Origin: Clostridioides difficile ATCC 9689 = DSM 1296
GTDB taxonomy: Bacteria; Bacillota; Clostridia; Peptostreptococcales; Peptostreptococcaceae
Length of the DNA stretch: 64,000 bases
Reading direction: 5' to 3'
NCBI RefSeq assembly: GCF_001077535.1
Contig: NZ_CP011968.1
Span: 3,720,001 to 3,784,000 of the forward strand
A program made the position numbers and the translations under genes. This document shows positions 20,913 through 39,250 of this stretch, piece by piece (position 1 is the first letter of the stretch; every line of letters begins with the position of its first letter). The notes under the pieces are model-generated. The model saw nothing but the letters and a program-made list of their open reading frames with translations. It had not been told where the DNA came from and did no database searches.

Positions 20913-21008
20913 ATGATTTATATAGAATTAGTTAAACTTGTTAGAAAACTTAACTCTACACAAATGTATACGATGAAGCGTTGTGTAGAGGTTAATCTGA
21001 AAGCTTAA
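20913..21008 (+). CDS. Leader peptide of the ABC-F resistance gene
   Basis: A 31-codon ORF (start MIYIELVKLVRKLNST) located 226 bases before the ABC-F gene. Its 3' half overlaps the first of a series of hairpins. This is the arrangement of leader peptides whose ribosome stalling in the presence of an antibiotic changes RNA folding. The ribosome binding site (AGGATG) is weak and a little distant. Confidence 0.55.
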   Translation: MIYIELVKLVRKLNSTQMYTMKRCVEVNLKA

Positions 21009-25869: not shown

Positions 25870-26664
25870 TTAACTACTTGCACTTTTATAATGTCTCATA
25901 CCTAACTTCCAAAATCTCCACATAAACAATGTAAACAAAAATACAATTAAAATTGAGTATATTAATCCATTAATTGTTATTGTCCCAGCCAAAATTTGAG
26001 TCGGAATTGTCGACATAATTCCATATGGTAAGATTAAATAGAATAATACTTTAAAAACACCTTCATATATTACACCAGGAATTTTCATATTCATTGGCAA
26101 TAAATTATCTTCTAATCTCATTATCGCAGAAGATGATATAACAAAAAATGAAACTGTTCTAAGTATGATACATACATCATAAAAAAGTAATGTCATCAAT
26201 AACACCATGAAAATATATATTATTATCATAACTAAAGTTATCTCTGAGTTTAACTCAGATATTCCATATAAAACAATAAGTATACTTGCTAGAATTAATG
26301 GTGATGAACCAATATTAATATTTTCAAATGTTAACCTAAATAGTGGATCTAATGGTTTTGTAATATAGTAGTCTAATTCTCCTTCTTGGATTTTTCGTGG
26401 AATATCATAAATACCAAAAAAGAAAATCGTCATATTTATCGCATTTATTAATGAGAAAGTTCCTATAAATATTAACATCTCTCCTTGTTGCCATCCCCCT
26501 ATTGAGTCTACATGAGAATATATACTATTAAACATTAGAAGTTGTAATATAAATAATGAACTATCTACAAAAAATGCTCCAAAAAAATCAAATCTAAATA
26601 CCATCATCTTTGATAATTTCATTTTTAATAACATAAATATTATTTTCAAATTTTTTTTCATCAT
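25870..26664 (-). CDS. ABC transporter permease (COG4587/COG3694 type)
   Basis: A 264-residue permease with six hydrophobic segments and the family piece IPRKIQEGELDYYITKPLDPLFRL after the second helix, which I associate with the ABC-2 permeases that pair with COG4586 ATPases. Its start overlaps the previous permease gene by 4 bases. Third gene of the ATPase-permease-permease unit; substrate unknown. Confidence 0.85.
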   Translation of the reverse strand: MMKKNLKIIFMLLKMKLSKMMVFRFDFFGAFFVDSSLFILQLLMFNSIYSHVDSIGGWQQGEMLIFIGTFSLINAINMTIFFFGIYDIPRKIQEGELDYYITKPLDPLFRLTFENINIGSSPLILASILIVLYGISELNSEITLVMIIIYIFMVLLMTLLFYDVCIILRTVSFFVISSSAIMRLEDNLLPMNMKIPGVIYEGVFKVLFYLILPYGIMSTIPTQILAGTITINGLIYSILIVFLFTLFMWRFWKLGMRHYKSASS

Positions 26665-27527
26665 ATACCCACCCCATCAAATAATGTTCTCATTCTTTTA
26701 TACATAACTTTATTTACTACAGAAAAAAATAAAACCCATAATGCTAGAATAATTAATCCTTGTATTGCCTCATTGCTGTTTCTACCTATTAGTAACATAG
26801 ATGGCAAATATGTTGTATAATAAAATGGAAATACCTTCATAACTGTTACTATAGTTTCTGGTAAGAGTACAAGTGGTATCATTGTTCCTGTAATAAATTC
26901 AACAATATTTTCAATTATCATTCTAAAAAAACTAATCTCAAGAAATTTAAATGACAAAATCCCAATAAAGAAGTGGAGTTTCATCATAAAAATAAACCCT
27001 AGAAAAATCATCAAAATTGAAATTAATATTTGAACTGGATTTGATGTAAAGGCAAAATCTATTTTAAATATAAAAATCCATACAAATGCAGAAATCATAT
27101 TAAATACAAAATAAAAACATGTCATTCCAAAATTTTTAGCAATAAAATAATTTTGAACATTAATTGGAATAATCATGTACTTTGAAAAGGTGCCCAATTT
27201 TACACGATTACATATCTCTTCACTGGTACTCTTTGACATATCAATACCTGCTAAAAATGAGCTTATTATATAGTAAGATAACATAGAGTTAAATGTAAAA
27301 CCAGAGACTATTTTATTTTCACCAAAAATTGCTTTCCATAAAATATAAGCAAATAAAATTTTTACAATCGTAAACACCATATTAACCACCACATCAAATC
27401 TCCAGATAAGTTGCACTTTAAAATTAATTTTGGCTACTTCATAATACCTTCTAATACTCTGTTTAAATTTATAAAACATTGAATAATTTGAACTTGCTTC
27501 ATTATAGTTGCTCATAATACTCATCAC
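26661..27527 (-). CDS. ABC transporter permease (COG4587/COG3694 type)
   Basis: A 288-residue permease, paralogous in layout to the next gene: six hydrophobic segments and the piece EICNRVKLGTFSKYMIIPIN at the position where its partner has the EGELDYYITKPLD motif. Its start overlaps the ATPase gene by 26 bases, so translation is coupled. The two permeases likely form a heterodimer. Confidence 0.85.
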   Translation of the reverse strand: MMSIMSNYNEASSNYSMFYKFKQSIRRYYEVAKINFKVQLIWRFDVVVNMVFTIVKILFAYILWKAIFGENKIVSGFTFNSMLSYYIISSFLAGIDMSKSTSEEICNRVKLGTFSKYMIIPINVQNYFIAKNFGMTCFYFVFNMISAFVWIFIFKIDFAFTSNPVQILISILMIFLGFIFMMKLHFFIGILSFKFLEISFFRMIIENIVEFITGTMIPLVLLPETIVTVMKVFPFYYTTYLPSMLLIGRNSNEAIQGLIILALWVLFFSVVNKVMYKRMRTLFDGVGI

Positions 27528-28512
27528 TTCCTTTCTTATATATTCTCTCTACAATACTACCTATATCTTCTTCTTCAATCATTACATCTTTAACATCATA
27601 TTTATCAAAAATCCATTTAATCGTTTCATTTCCTCTTTCTTTTGGCACAATTACTGATATCTTATGATTTGTTTGTTCAACAACTTTACAATCTTTTGGA
27701 AATACAATGTTAGTTTCATTGGAAAAACTAACTGTTATTTTTTTATATTTTTGAAAATGATTAAATAGTTTCTCTGTAGAACCATCATATATTTTACGGC
27801 TATTTTCTACAACAATACTTCTACTACAGAGACTCTTAATATCTTCCATGTAATGAGAAGTAAGTATAATAGTAGTTCCTTTTGTTTCATTTACTTCTTT
27901 TAGGAAATACCTAATTTGTTTTTGGGCTATAGCATCTAAGCCTATAGTTGGTTCATCCAAAAATAATATTTTTGGATTATGTAGAAGGGCTACTATTAGT
28001 TCCATTTTCATTCTTTCTCCTAAAGAAAGCGTCCTAACTTGAACATTTAAATAGTCAGATACCTCAAATAATTCGATAAAGTAATCCAAGTTTTTTTTAT
28101 ATTCTTCATTAGATATATCATATAATTCTTTAAATAAAAGAAACGTATCTGCTGGTGTCAATTCAAAGAATAGTTGACTTTTTTGGCCCATAACAACAGC
28201 ATATTGTTTTTTAAAATTATTTTCTAATTTGTTAGGGTAATAACCCATAACAGATATTTCTCCAGAAGACGGTACAATAATACCAGTTAACATCTTAATA
28301 AGAGTAGTTTTGCCAGCTCCATTTTGACCTATTAATCCAACAAATTCTCCTTCTTCTATCTTTAAATCAAATGACGATATAGCTGTTTTTTCTGTATATT
28401 TCCTATTAAATAAAGACTTTACACTCCCCATAAATCCTGCCTTTTTCTCAAATCTTCTATAAGATTTAGTCAGTTCATTAAGTTCAATTATACTCATTTT
28501 AACTACCTCCAT
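27502..28512 (-). CDS. ABC transporter ATP-binding protein (COG4586 type)
   Basis: A 336-residue ATPase. Walker A GQNGAGKTT near residue 60, signature LSLGERMKMEL (with Ser-Leu-Gly-Glu instead of SGGQ, typical of this group), Walker B KILFLDEPTIGLDAIAQ, switch His in LTSHYMED. The long loop before the Walker A region (AGFMGSVKSLFNRKY) is usual for COG4586. The gene follows a leader RNA of nearly 400 bases that ends in a strong terminator 15 bases before the coding region, and whose paralogue precedes the RNHCP-rsgA operon. Expression is therefore probably induced by a signal read by that leader. Confidence 0.9.
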   Translation of the reverse strand: MEVVKMSIIELNELTKSYRRFEKKAGFMGSVKSLFNRKYTEKTAISSFDLKIEEGEFVGLIGQNGAGKTTLIKMLTGIIVPSSGEISVMGYYPNKLENNFKKQYAVVMGQKSQLFFELTPADTFLLFKELYDISNEEYKKNLDYFIELFEVSDYLNVQVRTLSLGERMKMELIVALLHNPKILFLDEPTIGLDAIAQKQIRYFLKEVNETKGTTIILTSHYMEDIKSLCSRSIVVENSRKIYDGSTEKLFNHFQKYKKITVSFSNETNIVFPKDCKVVEQTNHKISVIVPKERGNETIKWIFDKYDVKDVMIEEEDIGSIVERIYKKGSDEYYEQL

Positions 28513-28534
28513 ATTTCATAATTTATATAAAAAA

Positions 28535-28905
28535 AGTCCACAGGTATATATCTGCCTTTTTCTGTGCTTATATTTAACAGCACAAAAACAGAAAACTCCT
28601 GTGGACTAGAAAAATTAATACTCTCTATTTCAAAATAGTTATCAAAATAATACTATACAAAATTAATAAAAGTGTAGCAGATTAAAGCCTACTACACCAT
28701 AATTTAACAAAGTAATATATATTTTAAATACTATTTGTTGTCATATGTCAGTTATCTATAAAGGCAGAATAAGACACAAAAATTAAATGTATTAAAAATA
28801 CACTTAAAATTTCTGATTATACAGAATATATGTGTCTCCAACTATTTAATTGTTGGTTACCATTATATAACTCCGACATCAAGGCACTCCTCTCATAATA
28901 TTATT
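28535..28905 (-). ncRNA. Structured leader RNA with terminator, copy A (ABC exporter operon)
   Basis: The promoter is TTGAAC (28935-28940), 17-base spacer, TATGAT (28912-28917), so transcription starts near 28905 on the minus strand. The leader contains the hairpin CCAAC/GTTGG, a long-range pair GACACA/TGTGTC, the hairpin GTGTAGTAGG/CTGCTACAC, and ends in a long terminator AGTCCACAGG/CCTGTGGACT with an inner hairpin and T-tract (28527-28607). Order, spacing and most of the sequence are shared with 34362-34746. It matches no T-box or riboswitch class that I can recognise. Confidence 0.75.
28817..28879 (-). CDS. Possible leader peptide in leader RNA copy A
   Basis: A 20-codon ORF starting MSELYNGNQQ, preceded by GAGGAGTG at a fair distance. 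The first five codons (MSELY) are the same in copy B. A second, nested ORF MVTNN (28846-28863) is also matched by MVTNK in copy B. Either could be a sensing peptide; no proof of translation. Confidence 0.35.
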   Translation of the reverse strand: MSELYNGNQQLNSWRHIYSV

Positions 28906-29199
28906 ATTGATATCATATCATAAAGGTTATTTATGTTCAAGTATGGATTTATATACTAATACATTTAGCTTATTTCTTCAGGGTTGAATTTAAATTTCAT
29001 TTATAATATTCGTTTATAAATTAAAAATATAATACGTATATTAAAACTGGTTATTTTACTGTAATATTTTTATTGTAAAAGATATACTTTTACCTATACA
29101 GGATGTAATTTCTTTAGTTCTATATTATAATAATATTGTAATAAGAGTTCAACTTATAATACATTAAAATATAAACTGTAAATCTTAAGGGGGTAATCT

Positions 29200-30156
29200 A
29201 TGGAAAATAATACAATACAAAAACAATTAAGAGATTTATCAAAAAAAATTTGGCATATTTATATTTTAAATCCAGAAGAAGAAAACCTTAAATTTATTAT
29301 TTCCTTATTAGATGACAACCTTGCATTAATTGGAACAGGAAAACATGAATTTTACGAAACATTAGAAGAATTTATTATAGGTCTTGAAAAAGACCAAACA
29401 GAATCAGAGCAAATAGACTTTGAGATTATAGATGAGTGGTATTCATGTACCAAAGTTACAGACGAAGCTTTTATAGTATATGGTACTCTTTGGGTAATAG
29501 AAAAAGATTACCTAGAAAAAGATATCTATGTAGAAATGGATACTCGATTTACTATGGTATACAGAGTTACAGATGATATGATTAAACTTATCCATGTTCA
29601 CCATTCTATTCCAAACTTTGACCAAATGAAAGATGAGTATTACCCTAAAACAATAACTGAAAAAGCACAAGAAGCACTAGCAATGGCAAATGAATTTAAA
29701 CTAAAATCAGAAAAAGACCTTATGACTGGACTATACAATAGACATTTTTTTGAAGTACACATAAAAGAAATGCTTAAAACTGTTTCACATGGATACTTTT
29801 ACATCTTTGATTTAGATAATTTTAAACAGGTAAATGATATCTTTGGTCATGTTCGAGGAGATGAAATACTAATACATTTTTCAAATATTTTGACTAAAGT
29901 ATTCGTAAATGATGCTATTATTGGAAGACTTGGTGGAGATGAATTTGCTGTTTTTGAATATAGTAATCAATCAAAAGAGAATGTTGAAAATAAGGCAAAG
30001 AAGGTTTTAGAATTATGCCTAGAGAGTAATTCTTGTTCTATAGGTATATCTAAATTAGAAAATAACTCTGATACTTTCCAGTCTTTATACAAACAATCGG
30101 ATTATGCTTTGTATTATTCAAAACGAAATAATAAAGGAAACTTTAGTTGGTTTTAG
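29200..30156 (+). CDS. Diguanylate cyclase with N-terminal SnoaL-like domain
   Basis: A 318-residue protein without membrane segments. Residues 10-150 look like a SnoaL_3/NTF2-like ligand pocket (LDDNLALIGTGKHEF, FIVYGTLWVIEKD). Residues 165-318 are a GGDEF domain: metal site DLDNFKQVND, an intact active loop RLGGDEFAVF, and no RxxD inhibition site before it. It should make c-di-GMP in response to something bound by the first domain. AAGGGGG precedes the ATG. A c-di-GMP riboswitch lies 5 kb downstream at 35127. Confidence 0.9.
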   Translation: MENNTIQKQLRDLSKKIWHIYILNPEEENLKFIISLLDDNLALIGTGKHEFYETLEEFIIGLEKDQTESEQIDFEIIDEWYSCTKVTDEAFIVYGTLWVIEKDYLEKDIYVEMDTRFTMVYRVTDDMIKLIHVHHSIPNFDQMKDEYYPKTITEKAQEALAMANEFKLKSEKDLMTGLYNRHFFEVHIKEMLKTVSHGYFYIFDLDNFKQVNDIFGHVRGDEILIHFSNILTKVFVNDAIIGRLGGDEFAVFEYSNQSKENVENKAKKVLELCLESNSCSIGISKLENNSDTFQSLYKQSDYALYYSKRNNKGNFSWF

Positions 30157-30445
30157 TACAAAAGATATTAAAATAGGCAAATTTATTAGAGTATCTTGTC
30201 CTATATACTAATAAGTAAAGTAAACAACAAGCTATCTTTGCATATATTTATATAAACCAACTATTCTTAATAAAACTACAATAGTCAACATGACCACTAT
30301 TATAGAATATAATAAACTAAAAACATTATTAACATGATTAATATTATATTTTAATAATTTTATTTTTAAAAGTAAGTCCAAAATGTTATATGTTTTGATT
30401 AAAACTGATGTTGATATAAAAAATTTTACTTAAAAAAACACTTAG

Positions 30446-30467
30446 AAAGGCTTTATAAAGAGCCTTT
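30446..30467 (+). terminator. Intrinsic terminator downstream of the GGDEF gene
   Basis: AAAGGCT pairs with AGCCTTT and is followed by TTTGCTTTT on the plus strand. It lies 290 bases past the stop; the stretch between holds no gene that I can see. Confidence 0.6.
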
Positions 30468-30530
30468 TTTGCTTTTATTGATTAAATTTTCATATAAAAT
30501 TCCTTATTAAATTTCAAATCAATAAAAAAA

Positions 30531-30546
30531 GGCTCTATAAGAAGCC
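30531..30546 (-). terminator. Intrinsic terminator of the transglutaminase-like gene
   Basis: GGCTCTATAAGAAGCC folds into a short stem and is followed on the minus strand by seven T. It is about 10 bases past the stop at 30557. Confidence 0.7.
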
Positions 30547-30556
30547 TCCCCTATTT

Positions 30557-31447
30557 TTATTGATTAAATCCTAATATAGACAATGCCTTAGCATCATAGT
30601 AAGTAGTCATCTCTCTTGTTGCATCCTTTAATTTACGGTAATCAAAGTCTAATGATCCACCAAAATCTGATATTTCAGACCCATCAAACCTATACCATTT
30701 CCCATCAATTTGTATATAGTTCCAAGCATGATTTAATGACGGATTTAATATAAATAGTGAATTCATTCCCATTAACCTTGTTAATAAATGAAAGCTACTT
30801 GCAAAACTTCCACATACACCACGTTTATCAACCAGATTACCATAGACTATATTACAATATTTAGAGTCTGCATATTTTGCTTCGGTTACCAATTTTGCAG
30901 CTCTATTAGCTCTTTCCATCTCAGATGCATTTCTCCAGTCAAAACTATTTAAAAAATTCCTGATTACTGTAAGTGTATCTTGAGCTTGTTTGTAAGAAAT
31001 CCAATTTCCATCGGCTATTACTTCTATAGGGTCAAGTTTTCCAAAGCCTATTCTCTGATATGAGCCACCTGACAATGCTGCCGCATAAAATCCTAGCCCT
31101 TCCATACCTTTATTTATATAATAATATTTACCATCTGCTCGAAGCTCAACTCCATTGGGATTTCCTCCATAGAGTAAATCCCATCCCTCTTTACCTGTTG
31201 TATTAAGACCAAGTTGTGTTAACATTCCTTTAAGAGGATATTTAGGGTCATAATTAGCACCTTTACTTATTGCATTTGTTTGCACTCTGCCATCCATTGT
31301 GCCTATATTAGTCTGATTACGTTCATTTGCACTCTGTTTTTTCAAGCTAGATGTTTCATCTTCTTGATATGGCTCTGCCATTACTGTCATACTCATCATC
31401 AATATAATAATCATGGTAATCATAGTAGTTAATATATTCTTCTTCAT
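30557..31447 (-). CDS. Secreted transglutaminase-like domain protein
   Basis: A 296-residue protein with a signal peptide (KKNILTTMITMIIILMMSMT, cleavage likely after VMA at about residue 24). The C-terminal third is a transglutaminase/protease-like fold: catalytic Cys in GVCGSFASSFHLL, His in NHAWNYIQIDGKWY and Asp in RFDGSE. The middle region is not recognised. It probably acts on peptides or cross-links at the cell surface. Single gene with its own terminator. Confidence 0.85.
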   Translation of the reverse strand: MKKNILTTMITMIIILMMSMTVMAEPYQEDETSSLKKQSANERNQTNIGTMDGRVQTNAISKGANYDPKYPLKGMLTQLGLNTTGKEGWDLLYGGNPNGVELRADGKYYYINKGMEGLGFYAAALSGGSYQRIGFGKLDPIEVIADGNWISYKQAQDTLTVIRNFLNSFDWRNASEMERANRAAKLVTEAKYADSKYCNIVYGNLVDKRGVCGSFASSFHLLTRLMGMNSLFILNPSLNHAWNYIQIDGKWYRFDGSEISDFGGSLDFDYRKLKDATREMTTYYDAKALSILGFNQ

Positions 31448-31624
31448 ACTACTCCCCCTTATTTAATTCTTTTTAAAACATAAAATTATTAACTCATAAA
31501 TATATGGTTATTAGTAAATTGAAATTAAATCTGATTCATAAATTATTGGTTTAATAGAAGTGTATTGAAATTGTACCTTTATATTTTCATTATATAATAA
31601 ACTTATTTTTTTAAAACATATTGT

Positions 31625-32323
31625 TTAAATCAGTACATTTATATGTTTTTTTTGTTCATCTGTTTTATCAAATATATTAGTCTTTGAATTTTGTTTGTAT
31701 TCTTCAGCATCTTTATCTAACTTTTCTATTCTCGACTCAAGTTTCATTATTTCTTCTTGTGTTAAATTTATAAAATTTTTAAGCATATTTTCAAGCTCTT
31801 CACGAGTTTTACCTACTAAAGATAAGTCCTCAGATACTTTCTCTTTTTTATTGGAATCCTCTTTATAATCCTTTTTTTGTTCTAACTCTTCTAATTTTTC
31901 ATCATTTAATATTTCTTCTTCAATTTTTTCATTAGACTCTTTAGTGATTAAAGATTCTTTTTCATCATTTGTATTTAGATAAGTTGAATTTTCATCTAAC
32001 ATTGTACTTTTATTTTTATCTTCTATAATGCTATTTTTAATACCTATTTCTATATTAGAAAAGTTATTAGTTGTTTCTCTTATTTCTGATTTACATAAGT
32101 TCTTAATTGCGTCATTTATTTTTTTAGCATAAACCTCTTGTCTATATTTTAAATCTCTAATTCTATCATTAAGTTCTTGCTTTTGTTTCATAATATTAGA
32201 TAAATAAGTGTCTTTTCCTACAGTTTCATTTTTCTTAACCATATTTTCATTTATTCTTGTATTATTTATATTACTTTCATATCTAAATGAATATTGACTT
32301 CTATATTGACTAGATATTTTCAT
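31625..32323 (-). CDS. Hypothetical coiled-coil protein
   Basis: A 232-residue, highly charged protein rich in Lys, Glu and Asn. The N-terminus is MKISSQYRSQYSFRYES, followed by a coiled-coil segment (IMKQKQELNDRIRDLKYRQEVYAKKINDAI is split here by heptads), a low-complexity acidic middle, and a second helical piece at 175-215 (TREELENMLKNFINLTQEEI). No signal peptide or membrane segment. I do not recognise the family; it resembles the short helical proteins of unknown function common in clostridia. Confidence 0.6.
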   Translation of the reverse strand: MKISSQYRSQYSFRYESNINNTRINENMVKKNETVGKDTYLSNIMKQKQELNDRIRDLKYRQEVYAKKINDAIKNLCKSEIRETTNNFSNIEIGIKNSIIEDKNKSTMLDENSTYLNTNDEKESLITKESNEKIEEEILNDEKLEELEQKKDYKEDSNKKEKVSEDLSLVGKTREELENMLKNFINLTQEEIMKLESRIEKLDKDAEEYKQNSKTNIFDKTDEQKKHINVLI

Positions 32324-32762
32324 TTATTTCACCTCCCTAAAATAAATTTATGTTTATAGAAACCAACTTAACTTAATTATATTTTATCATCAAAAGTATA
32401 CATTTACAAATATTAGTTAATAGTTTTATAGGTTCGAGCATTATTTTCAACAAAAAATTTTTATTATAAATTAAAACAATAATTTTTATAAATATATTAT
32501 TTGTATTTTATAATTCATATATTTTTACTTTATAAATTAGCAATATTGCAGTTTTGCTCTTAAGAAACATCTCTATCATACATAAGCATATACTCTATTA
32601 TGTATTAGTATAAATATGCCTTTTCTTATCTTACATAAGACCTCTTTATAAAGAAGCCTATCGTAACAAATATGTATACATTATCACATGTATATATCAT
32701 CATATAAAAAATCAAACTTTATTAAAAAAATTAATAAATTGCTTTAAATAATACCACAAACC

Positions 32763-32810
32763 AAATTTGCCATCAAAATCACATTAAAGTAACAAATTGA
32801 TGGCAAATTT
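32763..32810. repeat. Hairpin repeat, copy 1 (after rsgA)
   Basis: AAATTTGCCATCAA and TTGATGGCAAATTT form a perfect 14-bp inverted repeat, 50 bases past the rsgA stop (minus strand). The repeat and about 25 bases after it are similar, gap-free, to 36891-36960. The rest of 32324-32858 is AT-rich with no gene that I can support. Confidence 0.7.
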
Positions 32811-32858
32811 AATATATTAATAGTATATAGACTCATAGAATGAACAAAAAAACTACAC

Positions 32859-33926
32859 TTATCTTCTAATCTTCTTATTTATTTTTGAGATATTTTTAAA
32901 TTTCTTTTCTTTTTTTGCTAAGTATTCGCTTTTATTGTCTGCAAATACTGCTTCAGTTTTAAGCCTACGATAGGATTCCCATCTTTTAGGCGAAAGTTCT
33001 TGATGAGCAATAGCTTCCCAGATAGCACAGCCTGGTTCTGAGGTGTGAGTACAATTACGAAAATGACATTTTCCGAAATAAGCTTCTATATCTGCAAAAC
33101 TTTTATCTAAACCTTCTGAAACATCCCACATTCCCAACTCTCTCATACCTGGTGTGTCAATAACAATACCACCACCTGAAATTAAAAATAGCTCTCGTCT
33201 AGTCGTGGCATGTCTTCCTTTATCATCATCTATGCGAATTTCCTTTGTATTTAAAAATTCTCCACCCATCAGACAATTAATTAATGAAGATTTTCCAACT
33301 CCTGAAGAACCAAGTAAGGCAACAGTACAGCCTGGTTTAATATACTTAGAAATCTGTTTATAACCATCTGGCTCTATAGATGAGGTAACAACTACATCTA
33401 CACCCAAGGCTATAGAATTAACTACTTGTAATTTACGATGCACATTGTCACATAAGTCTGATTTAGTAAGTACTACTACTGGGATAGCTCCACTTTCCCA
33501 TGTTAAAGACAGATACCTCTCCAATCTATGAATGTTAAAATCCTTATTCAGTGACATGCACAAAAAAACAATGTCAATATTAGCTGCAACCACCTGCTCC
33601 TCATTTACCTTTCCAGCAGCCTTACGCACAAACAAGCTTTTTCTATGAAGCACATGATGAATAATAGCATTACCATTTTTATTATTGCAACGATCCAACA
33701 TAACGAAATCACCAACTGTGGGAAAATCAGATTGTATAGTAGCCTCAAAACGCAGCTTTCCTGAAACCTCTGCAAACAGTACACCATTTACACATACAGC
33801 TTGATAAAAGTTCTTTTCCTGCGAGATAATCCGAGCAAGGTATAAATCATGATATTCCATACTTTGAGTAATAAAATTTCTATTTAGACCATAGTCTTGT
33901 AAATTGATTTGTTTCATACCATTCAT
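32859..33926 (-). CDS. rsgA: RsgA-type circularly permuted ribosome GTPase
   Basis: A 355-residue RsgA. An OB-like N-terminal domain (60-115) precedes the permuted GTPase: G4 LTKSDL, G1 GSSGVGKSS, G3 DTPGMRELG. The C-terminal zinc domain is CHFRNCTHTSEPGC. RsgA checks 30S subunit maturation and stalled states. The species normally has a housekeeping rsgA in a different locus, so this is likely a paralogue. Its start overlaps the RNHCP gene by 4 bases, and the operon is under the leader RNA at 34362-34746. A stress or antibiotic response function is inferred from that. Confidence 0.9.
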   Translation of the reverse strand: MNGMKQINLQDYGLNRNFITQSMEYHDLYLARIISQEKNFYQAVCVNGVLFAEVSGKLRFEATIQSDFPTVGDFVMLDRCNNKNGNAIIHHVLHRKSLFVRKAAGKVNEEQVVAANIDIVFLCMSLNKDFNIHRLERYLSLTWESGAIPVVVLTKSDLCDNVHRKLQVVNSIALGVDVVVTSSIEPDGYKQISKYIKPGCTVALLGSSGVGKSSLINCLMGGEFLNTKEIRIDDDKGRHATTRRELFLISGGGIVIDTPGMRELGMWDVSEGLDKSFADIEAYFGKCHFRNCTHTSEPGCAIWEAIAHQELSPKRWESYRRLKTEAVFADNKSEYLAKKEKKFKNISKINKKIRR

Positions 33927-34324
33927 TCTGTTTCCTCCTTTTCCAACTTTTCAATGATTCTTTCTAGTGGGAAAGGGGGCTGTGCCAGTGGTTTTAATGC
34001 AATTGACATTAATTTCACTGAATTATCATCAGCTGCAATACGATTAGAACTAAGATGTCCACAGCGTGTACAACGATGAATAATTGCCCACTCACCATTT
34101 TTTCTCACCCACACTCCAATAGGTTCCATATTAGCATCACAATCTGCAGCACGGTCACCAGGAATGATATCTACATGAAGACTATGTAAACAATGTGGAC
34201 AATGATTTCTATGTTGTGTACCAGCTCCTTCAGGAACTACAAGACAACCACAATTTTTGCAAATAAAGTTATCCATACAGGAATTTTCCTGATAATAAGC
34301 TCGTTTTCTATTTTTATAATTCAT
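33923..34324 (-). CDS. RNHCP domain protein
   Basis: A 133-residue protein with the name-giving motif RNHCPHCLHSLHVD, preceded by FICKNCGCLVVPEGAG, and a second zinc knuckle HRCTRCGHLSSNRIAADD. The four Cys pairs fit two zinc sites. Function unknown in detail; it is often encoded next to RsgA. The ATG is preceded by ACGGAGGAAA. First gene of the leader-controlled operon. Confidence 0.88.
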   Translation of the reverse strand: MNYKNRKRAYYQENSCMDNFICKNCGCLVVPEGAGTQHRNHCPHCLHSLHVDIIPGDRAADCDANMEPIGVWVRKNGEWAIIHRCTRCGHLSSNRIAADDNSVKLMSIALKPLAQPPFPLERIIEKLEKEETE

Positions 34325-34361
34325 TTTTATTTCCTCCGTATCTTGTATTTTCTACAAAAAA

Positions 34362-34746
34362 AGTCCACAGGTATTTATATCTGCCTTTTTATGTGGTATA
34401 CATATTTACCTACACAAAAACAGAAAACCCCTGTGGACTAGAAAATTTAGTATCTTCTATTTCAACATAATTATATTCAAAATAATACTGTGTAAAATTA
34501 ATAAAAGTGTAGCAGATTAAAGCCCACTACACCACAATTTAACAAAGTAATATGTAATATTATTATTTGTTGTCTAATGTTAGTTATCTATAAAGGCAGA
34601 GTAAGACACAACAATCAAATGTATCAAAAATACACTTAAAAATTCTGATTAAACAGGACCCATATGCGTCTCCAACTATTTATTTGTTGGTTACCATTAT
34701 ATATAACTCTGACATCAGGCAAGACACTCCTTCACTAATAATTATT
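34362..34746 (-). ncRNA. Structured leader RNA with terminator, copy B (RNHCP-rsgA operon)
   Basis: Paralogue of 28535-28905. Promoter TTGAAC (34776-34781), 17-base spacer, TAAAAT (34753-34758). The same hairpins occur in the same order: CCAAC/GTTGG, long-range GACGCA/TGTGTC (one base of copy A changed, pairing kept as G-U), GTGTAGTGGG/CTGCTACAC, and the terminator AGTCCACAGG/CCTGTGGACT with inner hairpin (34362-34439) and T tract. The start codon of the RNHCP gene follows 30 bases later. Confidence 0.75.
34680..34715 (-). CDS. Possible leader peptide in leader RNA copy B
   Basis: An 11-codon ORF, MSELYIMVTNK. It starts like the ORF in copy A, but two extra bases put the conserved MVTN codons in frame here. 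Preceded by GGAGTG about 13 bases upstream. Translation not shown. Confidence 0.3.
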   Translation of the reverse strand: MSELYIMVTNK

Positions 34747-35126
34747 ATTGAAATTTTATCATAAAATATAAGTATGTTCAAGTATAATTTAATATATTCA
34801 TATATTTATGTTTGTCTCATTTTCTTATTCTATAAAATCTAGTGGTATTTTAAAATTTAATGTTCACCTAGTATTAATAATAAAAATTAACTGCTATTAT
34901 TTGTTTTCTCATTTTATGCCTGTTGCTCAATTTATCTCACTTAAATTAATAACAACTGTCTTTTCATACAAAACCTACAATCAAGTTTTTCCATATATTC
35001 TACATGCATAGTCTATTTTTTTGATATAAAATAACGTTCATATTTGTAAATTTATTTAATTTTCAAATAAGTATATTGAATAATAAGCAATTCTATTGTA
35101 TTATTGTAATTGTAGAATAAAACTAA

Positions 35127-35240
35127 ATCGGCAAAACTAGAGAAATTTAGTGACGCAAAGCTATAGGGACTAACGCTTATAAAATAAACTATGAGTTATG
35201 TCAGCCAGTTGCCAAAAAGAGATATTCTTTTTGTTTTTAT
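35127..35240 (+). promoter_or_regulatory. c-di-GMP-I (GEMM) riboswitch with terminator
   Basis: The core has the class I signature: CGGCAAAACTAGAGAAA, the invariant GACGCAAAGC, a second stem with AGGGACTAA, and the closing CAGCCAGTTGCC that pairs with GGCAA at the 5' side. Directly after it, CAAAAAGA/TCTTTTTG forms a terminator stem followed by TTTTT (35213-35240). The terminator stem competes with the end of P1, which fits an expression switch set by c-di-GMP. The regulated gene is the small protein at 35270. Confidence 0.85.
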
Positions 35241-36987: not shown

Positions 36988-38748
36988 TTAGCTACAGTTT
37001 CCACATGTGTCGTTACTACTATCGGAACACATTTTATCAACCTCGTTGCTGTCATGTGAACACAATTCATTAGTCCTATGCCGTCCTCTTGCATTTTTCC
37101 TTTGTGTTTTAAATTTAGCACCATCTACGCTATTCTTCAAGCCTGTTTTATAAACAAAGGTCAACTGTGCAGGGTCAACATTTCCGTTTTCATCAAGTCC
37201 ACCTACAATTACTTTTTCAACAATGCTTTCAAACACATAGCGGTCAAATTTATCAAGAACCTCATTCTGTTCCAGAGTTTTCTTAAACTCTTTCAAACGT
37301 TTTTTTATGTCTTTCTCATTATCAGAAGTTTCTTGTAACTTTTGTCTTTCTTCAACAAGCTGTTCTTGTTTACTTACTAAATCAGCATATTTACTTTCGT
37401 AGGTTTCCTTATCAATAATTTCTTCCAGACGCATATCCACAAGTTTACTTTTTTTCTTCTCTAATGCGTCTATCTCCTTTTCCGCTTTTGCAAGTTGTTT
37501 TGACACCACACTACTACTAAGAGTATCGTCCATTCTCTGCAAAAATTCTTCCAGAACATCTTTATTATCATCACATAATAAACGATAACTTTCTACAAAT
37601 GCTTCTTCAATAGCTGTTTCTGGAATACCTTTGCTATGTTTACAAAATTTCTTTCCTTTCTTCGTAGCCGTTACACATTGCCATATAACCTTGCTGTATT
37701 TTGAGCCACTGTGCCAATTACGTCTTGTTAAAGTACCACCACAAAAGCCACATTCTAGCATACAGCTAAATGCGTATTTCCTGCTATACTTCTCACGCTT
37801 ACCGCTGCCTACCGTTGTTCGGTTCTTATTTCTCCGATTAAGAATTTCCTGTGCTTTTTCAAAAACTTCTTCACTAATAATCGGCTCATGGTGATCTTTC
37901 ATATAAAATTTATCTTCTTCACCCATGTTTTCAAGGCGACGTTTGGAAATCGGATCAACAGTAAAAGTTTTGCCTAAGAGTATATCACCCTTGTATTTCT
38001 CATTCTTAATAATTCCAATAACCGTAGATGGTGCCCATGTGGAACTCCCATACTTCGTTTTATAACCTAGACTTTCAAGCTCCTGTCCAATAACAGAACC
38101 ACCAGCACCATCAACATAACGGTTGAAAATATATCTGACAATCTCTGCTTCTTCTTGATTTACAGTTATTGTCTTATCCTCTGGGTGATAATCATATCCA
38201 ATACAACCTTGAAAACCTACCAGCTCGCCGCGCTTCATTTTCATTTTCAACCCTTTTTTTACATTGGCTGAAATGTTCTCGACTTCCTGCTGTGCAACAG
38301 AACTAAGAACAACAAGCAATAACTCTCCATCCATTGTAAGTGTATTGATTTTTTCATCTTCAAAATAAACGGCGATATTTCTCTCTTTTAGCATACGAAC
38401 ATATTTCAATGTGTCTAAAGTATTTCTGGCAAATCTTGATATGGATTTTGTAAATACCATGTCAATTTCACCATTCATACAGTCATTTATCATACGCTGA
38501 AAATCTTCTCGTTTTGTTACTTGTGTCCCCGTAATTGCTTCATCAGCATAAATGTCAGCTAACACCCATTCCTTGTTTTTCTTAATCATGTCAGTATAAT
38601 ACTGAACTTGTGATTTATAACTGTTTAACTGATCTTCGCTATCTGTACTTACACGGCAATATGCAGCTACACGCAAACGCTCAATGGCTTTTCCACGGGC
38701 TTGTCTTGCCAAAACATTTTTTGCTTTTATTACTTCAACTTCCTGCAT
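36988..38748 (-). CDS. Large serine recombinase of the conjugative element
   Basis: A 586-residue recombinase. The catalytic domain (about 25-170) has the nucleophile in AAYCRVSTD (Ser about 34) and the arginine-rich SISRFARNTLDTL. A Recombinase domain follows (GFQGCIGYDYHPEDK, STVIGIIKNEKYKGD), then a zinc ribbon (CMLECGFCGGTLTRR and CKHSKG) and a coiled-coil (about 440-500). It cuts and joins DNA between a chromosomal site and a circular intermediate. Similar to TndX-like enzymes, but I would not equate them. No tyrosine integrase is seen. Confidence 0.93.
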   Translation of the reverse strand: MQEVEVIKAKNVLARQARGKAIERLRVAAYCRVSTDSEDQLNSYKSQVQYYTDMIKKNKEWVLADIYADEAITGTQVTKREDFQRMINDCMNGEIDMVFTKSISRFARNTLDTLKYVRMLKERNIAVYFEDEKINTLTMDGELLLVVLSSVAQQEVENISANVKKGLKMKMKRGELVGFQGCIGYDYHPEDKTITVNQEEAEIVRYIFNRYVDGAGGSVIGQELESLGYKTKYGSSTWAPSTVIGIIKNEKYKGDILLGKTFTVDPISKRRLENMGEEDKFYMKDHHEPIISEEVFEKAQEILNRRNKNRTTVGSGKREKYSRKYAFSCMLECGFCGGTLTRRNWHSGSKYSKVIWQCVTATKKGKKFCKHSKGIPETAIEEAFVESYRLLCDDNKDVLEEFLQRMDDTLSSSVVSKQLAKAEKEIDALEKKKSKLVDMRLEEIIDKETYESKYADLVSKQEQLVEERQKLQETSDNEKDIKKRLKEFKKTLEQNEVLDKFDRYVFESIVEKVIVGGLDENGNVDPAQLTFVYKTGLKNSVDGAKFKTQRKNARGRHRTNELCSHDSNEVDKMCSDSSNDTCGNCS

Positions 38749-38984: not shown

Positions 38985-39250
38985 AGTAATCAGACGGCTT
39001 CGGCAGCTCCACTGGACTTTCACCATTCCCATTCTGATGGGTGAACCGTGTCATACGGGTGTATCATTATTCAGATATACGAGTCATGGCAGCAACCTTT
39101 CCAAAGATCGCTTGCGGTTCACTGGCATAATCGCTCGCTGCTTTCCCCATTTCAGTGGTCGTGGCGTTCCAGTCCGCTGGCTCGTCGTATATCAAACGTA
39201 TCTGATTACTGTATTCACTTGTCAAAGAACGGAAAAGAGTTAAAATGAGG
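38985..39250 (-). other. GC-richer block upstream of the SHOCT-like gene
   Basis: About 265 bases with roughly even base composition. On the minus strand a frame from about 39245 reads LTLFRSLTSEYSNQ and IYDEPADWNATTTEMGKAA and ends at a stop near 39067, without a good start. The following bases (CACCCAT/ATGGG, GGTGAAAGTCC) could fold. It could be a gene remnant or a piece of a structured RNA. Confidence 0.35.

Follow-up and report, generated by a model that had tools for sequence, protein, structure and literature searches.

A duplicated leader RNA before an exporter operon and an RNHCP-rsgA operon of Clostridioides difficile as a candidate ribosome-mediated attenuator

The window analyzed here is a stretch of 64,000 nucleotides (nt) from Clostridioides difficile ATCC 9689 = DSM 1296 (contig NZ_CP011968.1, positions 3,720,001 to 3,784,000), in which two unrelated operons on the minus strand each follow a leader RNA of the same kind. 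One operon encodes an ATP-binding cassette (ABC) exporter of the ABC-2 type, with an ATPase (27502..28512; best NCBIfam match drrA, below the cut-off of that model) and two permeases (26661..27527 and 25870..26664, both PF06182). The other encodes an RNHCP domain protein of 133 amino acids (aa) (33923..34324; PF12647, E 1.7e-39) and a 355 aa paralogue of RsgA (32859..33926; PF03193, E 8.2e-49). The leaders, each ~390 nt long, occupy 28529..28905 upstream of the ABC operon and 34356..34746 upstream of the RNHCP-rsgA operon, with both 5' ends placed from the promoters. A first-pass annotation, made from the sequence alone, had described the two as paralogues, and this is borne out by an identity of 84% over ~440 nt (E 1e-128); genome-wide, the leader matches these two copies only.

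Promoter type, order of folds and terminator are common to both copies and lie where that annotation had placed them. The promoters (34753..34781 and 28912..28940, minus strand) combine TTGAAC and, across 17 bp, TAAAAT in the RNHCP-rsgA copy or TATGAT in the ABC copy. A promoter scanner reported 53 promoter-like sites in the region against a shuffle mean of 49.7, which is no excess, so the promoter match alone is uninformative and the weight rests on conservation; the promoter region of the RNHCP-rsgA leader could be aligned in 13 copies. Both leaders fold better than any of their 100 shuffles (0/100 equally good in either case), with z-scores of -5.6 for the RNHCP-rsgA leader and -7.3 for the ABC leader. 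From 5' to 3', each is composed of a multibranched domain 1 (34577..34715 and 28745..28879), a long arm of 110 nt termed domain 2 (34463..34572 and 28631..28740), and an intrinsic terminator (34356..34439 and 28529..28607), all on the minus strand. The terminator reads AGTCCACAGG...CCTGTGGACT followed by T7 in both window copies, with stems at 34439-34362 and 28607-28535 and energies of -33.7 kcal/mol (34439-34356) and -32.2 kcal/mol (28607-28529). Its distance to the start codon, put at 15-30 nt in the first reading, is 31 nt from the T run in both copies, and falls within that range (16 nt) only for the longer ABC frame that starts at 28512. Within domain 2, a hairpin with a T-rich tract was also scored as terminator-like in both copies (34506-34533 and 28671-28698, minus strand) and could be a pause or early termination site.

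The model search for further copies that had been proposed alongside the first description returned 14 copies in 8/8 Clostridioides genomes, one of them broken. The alignments and counts that follow comprise 13 copies and leave out L030, a copy with a deletion of ~110 nt. In the consensus, domain 1 spans columns 77-215, domain 2 columns 220-332 and the terminator columns 356-433. Domain 1 consists of a rod bearing the hairpin CCAAC/GUUGG and of an arm, GACRCA/UGUGUC, that carries two hairpins. The earlier claim that changes between copies keep the pairing holds for domain 1 in the sense that 99.1% of the cells remain paired, but there the changes are one-sided; double changes are seen in domain 2, at a single pair that goes from A-U to G-C, and, by eye, at the tip of the terminator stem in L002, L008 and L009. 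The covariation score of domain 1 is not above that of its shuffles. The structure is backed by its energy and by the fact that almost no pair is broken, and covariation adds hardly anything. In 13/13 intact copies the main gene is preceded by a hairpin and a T run, with hairpin energies of -30.1 to -33.7 kcal/mol.

Two features described here go beyond the first-pass annotation, an upstream open reading frame (uORF) near the transcript start and an antiterminator strand. The Shine-Dalgarno (SD) sequence of the uORF is AAGGAG in the RNHCP-rsgA leader (34727..34732, minus strand) and GAGGAG in the ABC leader (28887..28892, minus strand). It is followed by the candidate uORF MSELYIMVTNK (34680..34715, minus strand; ATG start) in the former and by the candidate uORF MSELYNGNQQLNSWRHIYSV (28817..28879, minus strand) in the latter, and a TTG at 34722 would give a frame of 28 codons in place of MSELYIMVTNK. 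AGGAG and the ATG are invariant in 13/13 aligned copies. Over the whole transcript 277/398 columns are invariant, and less conserved tracts adjoin the invariant ones, with only 7 invariant columns among the 19 just upstream of the SD and 10 among the 27 of the terminator loop. AGGAG lies unpaired, outside the helices of the domain 1 consensus, and the start codon lies inside the closing helix of that domain, and in the window copies 26-31 nt away from the inferred 5' end. Every aligned copy has a short frame, inside domain 1 and beginning at this ATG, of 11 codons in eight (MSE[LF][YF]IMV[TN]N[KN]) and of 20 codons in five (MSELYNGNQQLNSWR...). Unlike the attenuators of the trp or ilv type, neither MSELYIMVTNK nor MSELYNGNQQLNSWRHIYSV contains a run of codons for one amino acid or one pathway. 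A conserved leader peptide, YNGNQQ-NSWR, had been suggested by two indels (4 and 2 nt) that restore the frame between the window copies; it was rejected on account of L005 and L009, which have no start codon between the SD and the ATG in that frame.

The candidate antiterminator strand, UCUGCCUUU, lies within domain 1 (34592..34600 and 28760..28768, minus strand), is invariant at 9/9 columns and is the perfect complement of AAAGGCAGA, which forms the 3' half of the upper terminator stem (34388-34380 and 28559-28551). All 27 columns of UCUGCCUUU, AAAGGCAGA and the competing terminator strand are invariant, and the UCUGCCUUU/AAAGGCAGA helix ranks third among the conserved helices by a simple pair score. 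Two invariant G's in AAAGGCAGA are poorly served by the terminator fold, which leaves one unpaired and places the other in a G-U wobble (13/13). Both form G-C pairs in the antiterminator, and the keeping of these G's is therefore not explained by a need for the terminator alone. A different pairing, of the 5' arm of the terminator with GUGGGCU in domain 2, was dropped by eye, as the ABC copies of one clade lose it.

Folding was computed at the decision point, for a transcript that ends just before the last terminator arm, and a ribosome was represented by a footprint of 33 nt with its P site on a given uORF codon. In the free leader, domain 1 is closed, with a probability of 0.86-0.96 for the GGUA/UGCC pairs in 12 copies and 0.40 in L006, and the antiterminator has a probability of 0.00-0.05 in 12/13 copies and 0.47 in L006. 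A footprint at codon 1 of the uORF raises the antiterminator to 0.83-0.94 in 13/13 copies. Footprints were also moved along three copies, and those at places other than the ones considered below mostly gave values near zero.

Convincing copies of the leader were seen in one genus only. A model of domain 1 (R1) matched 8/8 Clostridioides genomes and 0 of 63 other genomes of the family beyond a single chance-level match (G010; E 0.26 in 71 family genomes), and a model of domain 2 (R2) matched the same 8/71. Domain 2 was found in 14 copies and domain 1 in 13, corresponding to 13 intact leaders and the damaged L030. In 393 genomes of the order, this genus included, the sole weak full-length match to R1 (L066, E 0.04) was rejected, having no matching operon behind it and surrounding frames that run mostly antisense. 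It should be noted that searches over 40 genomes used stricter filters with few candidates scored and may miss distant relatives. In 100 genomes, blastn found beyond the genus only short matches (26-68 of 451 bases, best E 1.4e-6) that were attributed to chance in AT-rich sequence. An 18-base leader pattern also matched nine stretches outside Clostridioides; applied to these and to twelve loci with short blastn matches, R1 gave two weak matches only (E 0.3 and 0.68). The plasmid and phage collections contained no leader match by blastn. In line with the first-pass annotation, which could not match it to a riboswitch class, the leader has no known riboswitch match: neither the window leaders nor the loci of four other copies match Rfam at the gathering score, the matches of the window leaders below that score are chance matches up to E 5, and the T-box model matched none of the leaders in these scans.

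An operon lies 3' of the leader in 12/13 intact copies, eight times the ABC operon and four times the RNHCP operon, and the remaining copy, L006, is followed only by remains. That copy, the exception in free-leader folding, is nearly intact itself and precedes a decayed rsgA, of which tblastn detected only fragments behind the leader (G006). RNHCP occurs in 5/71 family genomes, all within the genus and one of them broken. In the genome with the broken gene (G005), the leader is L030, in which the missing ~110 nt include the uORF and all three switch strands are changed. G001 and G004 have a single leader, 5' of the ABC operon, and RNHCP was not found in either genome.

That the leader was duplicated as a control element, as had been proposed, agrees with its position before two unrelated operons, but the copying probably did not involve the leader only. 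In three relatives the RNHCP-side leader is followed by decayed first codons of the ABC gene, clearly in L006 (68/89 identical positions, score 44 against a shuffle maximum of 24) and L007 (74/100, score 45 against 22), and as a borderline case in L008 (43/55, score 22 against 20); none was found behind the leaders L001, L003 and L030. On account of these remnants, a leader joined to the start of the ABC gene was probably the origin of the RNHCP copy, and was then captured by RNHCP-rsgA. The leader would in that case have changed its client gene, with the first codons of the discarded gene still visible in sister lineages. In a midpoint-rooted leader tree that includes L030, one clade (support 100/99) consists of five ABC leaders, and the other holds the six RNHCP-side leaders and, with them, the ABC leaders of G001, G004 and G005. 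This grouping additionally requires loss or gene conversion, and more than one order of events would fit it.

Taken together, we consider it fairly probable that the leader is a ribosome-mediated transcription attenuator, used twice, by which stalled translation would switch both operons on. In the computed folds of the free RNA, domain 1 would close, pair the start codon of the uORF and lock UCUGCCUUU away, so that transcription ends at the terminator and the operon stays off. If a ribosome occupies the uORF, domain 1 would be unable to form, and the freed UCUGCCUUU could pair with AAAGGCAGA before the last terminator arm is transcribed, allowing read-through. A normally translating ribosome would be gone well before the polymerase has covered the ~300 nt to the terminator. 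The long stretch between uORF and terminator may hence act as a delay, and only a ribosome held by a drug or by other translation stress would keep the switch open. A single ribosome-level alarm would then raise both a pump (the ABC-2 exporter) and a 30S factor (the RNHCP-RsgA pair). In this scheme we infer the translation of the uORF, the drug signal, the induction and the function of the RNHCP-RsgA pair.

Several observations weigh against this attenuation mechanism. The uORF does not encode a conserved stalling peptide, as two peptides occur among the 13 copies and residues differ after codon 5, and the SD spacing is either 7 or 11 nt. Such a peptide is common in uORF attenuators of resistance genes, but drugs that stall ribosomes largely irrespective of sequence make it dispensable. 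In domain 1, double changes are found at 0/44 pairs, with all pair-keeping changes one-sided, and a shuffle control gave the same figures. Mean column identity is 91% and high throughout the genus, which makes invariance weak evidence. The match of UCUGCCUUU to AAAGGCAGA is by itself only suggestive, because an equally good helix between the upstream region and the terminator arises in 15-24 of 500 shuffles (3-5%) in the four copies tested. Footprints at codons 4, 8 and 11 act more weakly in several copies (0.36-0.94, 0.29-0.87 and 0.05-0.85, respectively). In the three copies scanned, a footprint placed ~125 nt 3' of the ATG opens the switch as well (0.28, 0.91 and 0.75), and L009 gives 0.12-0.27 at a few other footprint places. 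In the two copies computed, the full-length equilibrium favors the terminator even when a ribosome occupies the uORF, and forcing the antiterminator costs 11-21 kcal/mol (five copies computed); the switch would consequently have to be kinetic, that is, dependent on timing. The translation-stress signal suggested by the first-pass annotation is in keeping with the conserved SD and ATG and with the footprint-dependent change of fold, but no induction data were found in the open-access library searched.

The same observations have to be weighed for other explanations of the leader. Folded domains of this size and very high conservation, with conserved loops and, in domain 1, a conservation that follows no single reading frame, would also be found in an orphan riboswitch, in which domain 1, and perhaps domain 2, served as the aptamer, for example for the substrate of the exporter, and acted through the same antiterminator strand. 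A mutually exclusive pair of strands is expected of such a riboswitch as well. However, an aptamer would not be expected to contain an invariant unpaired SD with an ATG after it, a single ligand would have to suit both an exporter and a ribosome factor, and the lack of an Rfam match and the occurrence seen in one genus only further count against this reading, which we regard as unlikely. A protein might take the place of the ligand, with RNHCP, RsgA, a ribosomal protein or an antiterminator protein binding domain 1 or 2 and setting termination. The invariant CxxC pairs of RNHCP, recalling a zinc ribbon, and the well conserved hairpin in domain 2 would suit a protein switch, but the same leader precedes the ABC operon in the two genomes where RNHCP was not found, and the leaders have no match among the protein-binding leaders of Rfam, making this quite improbable.

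It is very improbable, in our estimation, that the terminated leader is a trans-acting, Hfq-bound small RNA with the downstream genes read by leakage, since an operon stands behind 12/13 intact leaders and, in G005, the broken RNHCP has a damaged leader, both of which point to action in cis. The high identity throughout the genus and the frequency at which shuffles reach the antiterminator match are what would be seen if a strong terminator had merely been carried along by the duplication as a passive element, with no regulated switch. To this we likewise give very little credence: fully invariant tracts lie beside the less conserved ones 5' of the SD and in the terminator loop, the two G's that the terminator uses poorly have been kept, and the damaged copy L030 drifts at the switch sites.

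Ribosome-mediated attenuation of this kind has experimental precedents in both the same species and a comparable gene setting. The cplR leader of C. difficile, for which uORF attenuation was shown experimentally, likewise has a 5' uORF that is held in a 5' hairpin in the off state and a terminator before the main gene, and a stalled ribosome opens the structure (PMC10201436). As described there it differs in being 212 nt long, with a 3-codon uORF (MRI) and the main SD inside the terminator hairpin, and it combines transcription and translation attenuation; the leaders described here are ~390 nt long, combine a uORF of 11 or 20 codons with a separate candidate antiterminator strand, have the main SD outside the terminator and precede two operons. 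The rli80-hflXr leader of Listeria, also with experimentally shown uORF attenuation, has a uORF with mutually exclusive terminator and antiterminator and controls a duplicated ribosome GTPase, and its uORF has 14 codons and an RLR motif that is lacking in our leaders (PMC6310831). The RsgA paralogue recalls hflXr because it is likewise a second copy of a ribosome GTPase and would likewise stand under an attenuator. HflX splits ribosomes, and RsgA acts on the 30S subunit. The bmrB-bmrCD leader of Bacillus subtilis is a case of ribosome-mediated attenuation before an ABC exporter, with another leader sequence and another type of exporter. The T-box leaders of C. difficile, of which 26 have been counted (PMC11477304), are alike in being long and multi-domain, with a terminator and an alternative fold, and differ in that no T-box match is found here.

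The second RsgA-like gene of the genome (G000:C1:2835918-2836799) is 32% identical to the window RsgA and is probably the housekeeping copy. The CxxC pairs of RNHCP are invariant in 15 aligned sequences and presumably form a zinc ribbon; in PDB the protein has no usable sequence match (best E 0.46). Among 398 sampled genomes of the phylum, RNHCP occurs in 17 (15 above the cut-off, this genome included), and in five of the 17 it forms the C-terminal portion of a longer frame (431-521 aa) that also carries an RsgA GTPase domain (L083, L084, L085, L087 and L088; the RsgA domain was present in 5/5 long frames tested). These fusions elsewhere mark the pairing of RNHCP with RsgA as a recurring unit. 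Upstream of other RNHCP genes, terminator-like hairpins were seen at some of the scanned loci (e.g., L085 and L086) and not at others.

Our more far-reaching proposal is tentative, and we hold it to be possible though less likely than not: a ribosome-occupancy switch specific to Clostridioides was copied with the start of the ABC exporter gene and captured by an incoming RNHCP-rsgA pair, creating a ribosome protection or rescue module induced by translation stress. If true, the RNHCP-RsgA pair, which elsewhere in the phylum is also a single fused protein, would be an unrecognized class of inducible ribosome factor and a 30S counterpart of HflXr. If the attenuation reading is right, one small sensor RNA would couple two operons of this important gut pathogen to ribosome status, and RNHCP with the RsgA paralogue would become a candidate intrinsic response to ribosome-targeting drugs.

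Traces of the leaders may already be present in published data. The map of strain 630 places a uup RNA before CD3359 and a cyclic di-GMP (c-di-GMP)-I riboswitch before CD3368.2 (PMC11477304). By a count of genes between these two anchors, and by that count only, the ABC ATPase corresponds to CD3364, the GGDEF gene of the window to CD3365, rsgA to CD3368 and RNHCP to CD3368.1. We take CD3365 to be this GGDEF gene. By the same gene order, the gap from which a non-coding RNA has been published, on a strand that the source does not state, holds the ABC leader, and an RNA in this gap is as expected for a terminated leader. A further candidate is CD630_s0642, listed as '5'UTR putative zinc finger protein gene' with a log2 fold change of 2.2 in infected mice; it may be the RNHCP leader. 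The tables of the 2024 review of C. difficile riboswitches contain neither leader (PMC11477304), and the main text of a 2024 survey of non-coding RNAs in 50 bacterial genomes, which has one C. difficile motif, mentions neither RNHCP nor RsgA (PMC11109978). Apart from the passage on the non-coding RNA, nothing on the leader was found in the main texts of the open-access library searched for RNHCP in C. difficile, for CD3361-CD3368 and for induction of RsgA.

The remaining features of the neighborhood lie outside the two leader operons. A gene with a GGDEF and a SnoaL-like domain (29200-30156, plus strand) is divergent from the promoter of the ABC leader. A c-di-GMP-I riboswitch (35120-35216, plus strand; 72.4 bits), by gene order the one before CD3368.2, neighbors the RNHCP leader and is of a transcription-terminating class, but it lies on the opposite strand, serves another gene and belongs to a model that the leaders do not match. 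A uup RNA motif (20944-20991, plus strand; 61.7 bits) precedes an ABC-F-like gene that by its place in the gene order corresponds to CD3359 in strain 630. A pemK RNA motif (39009-39070, minus strand; 49.5 bits) lies near a recombinase-like gene (36988-38748), and the two are perhaps part of an integrated element.

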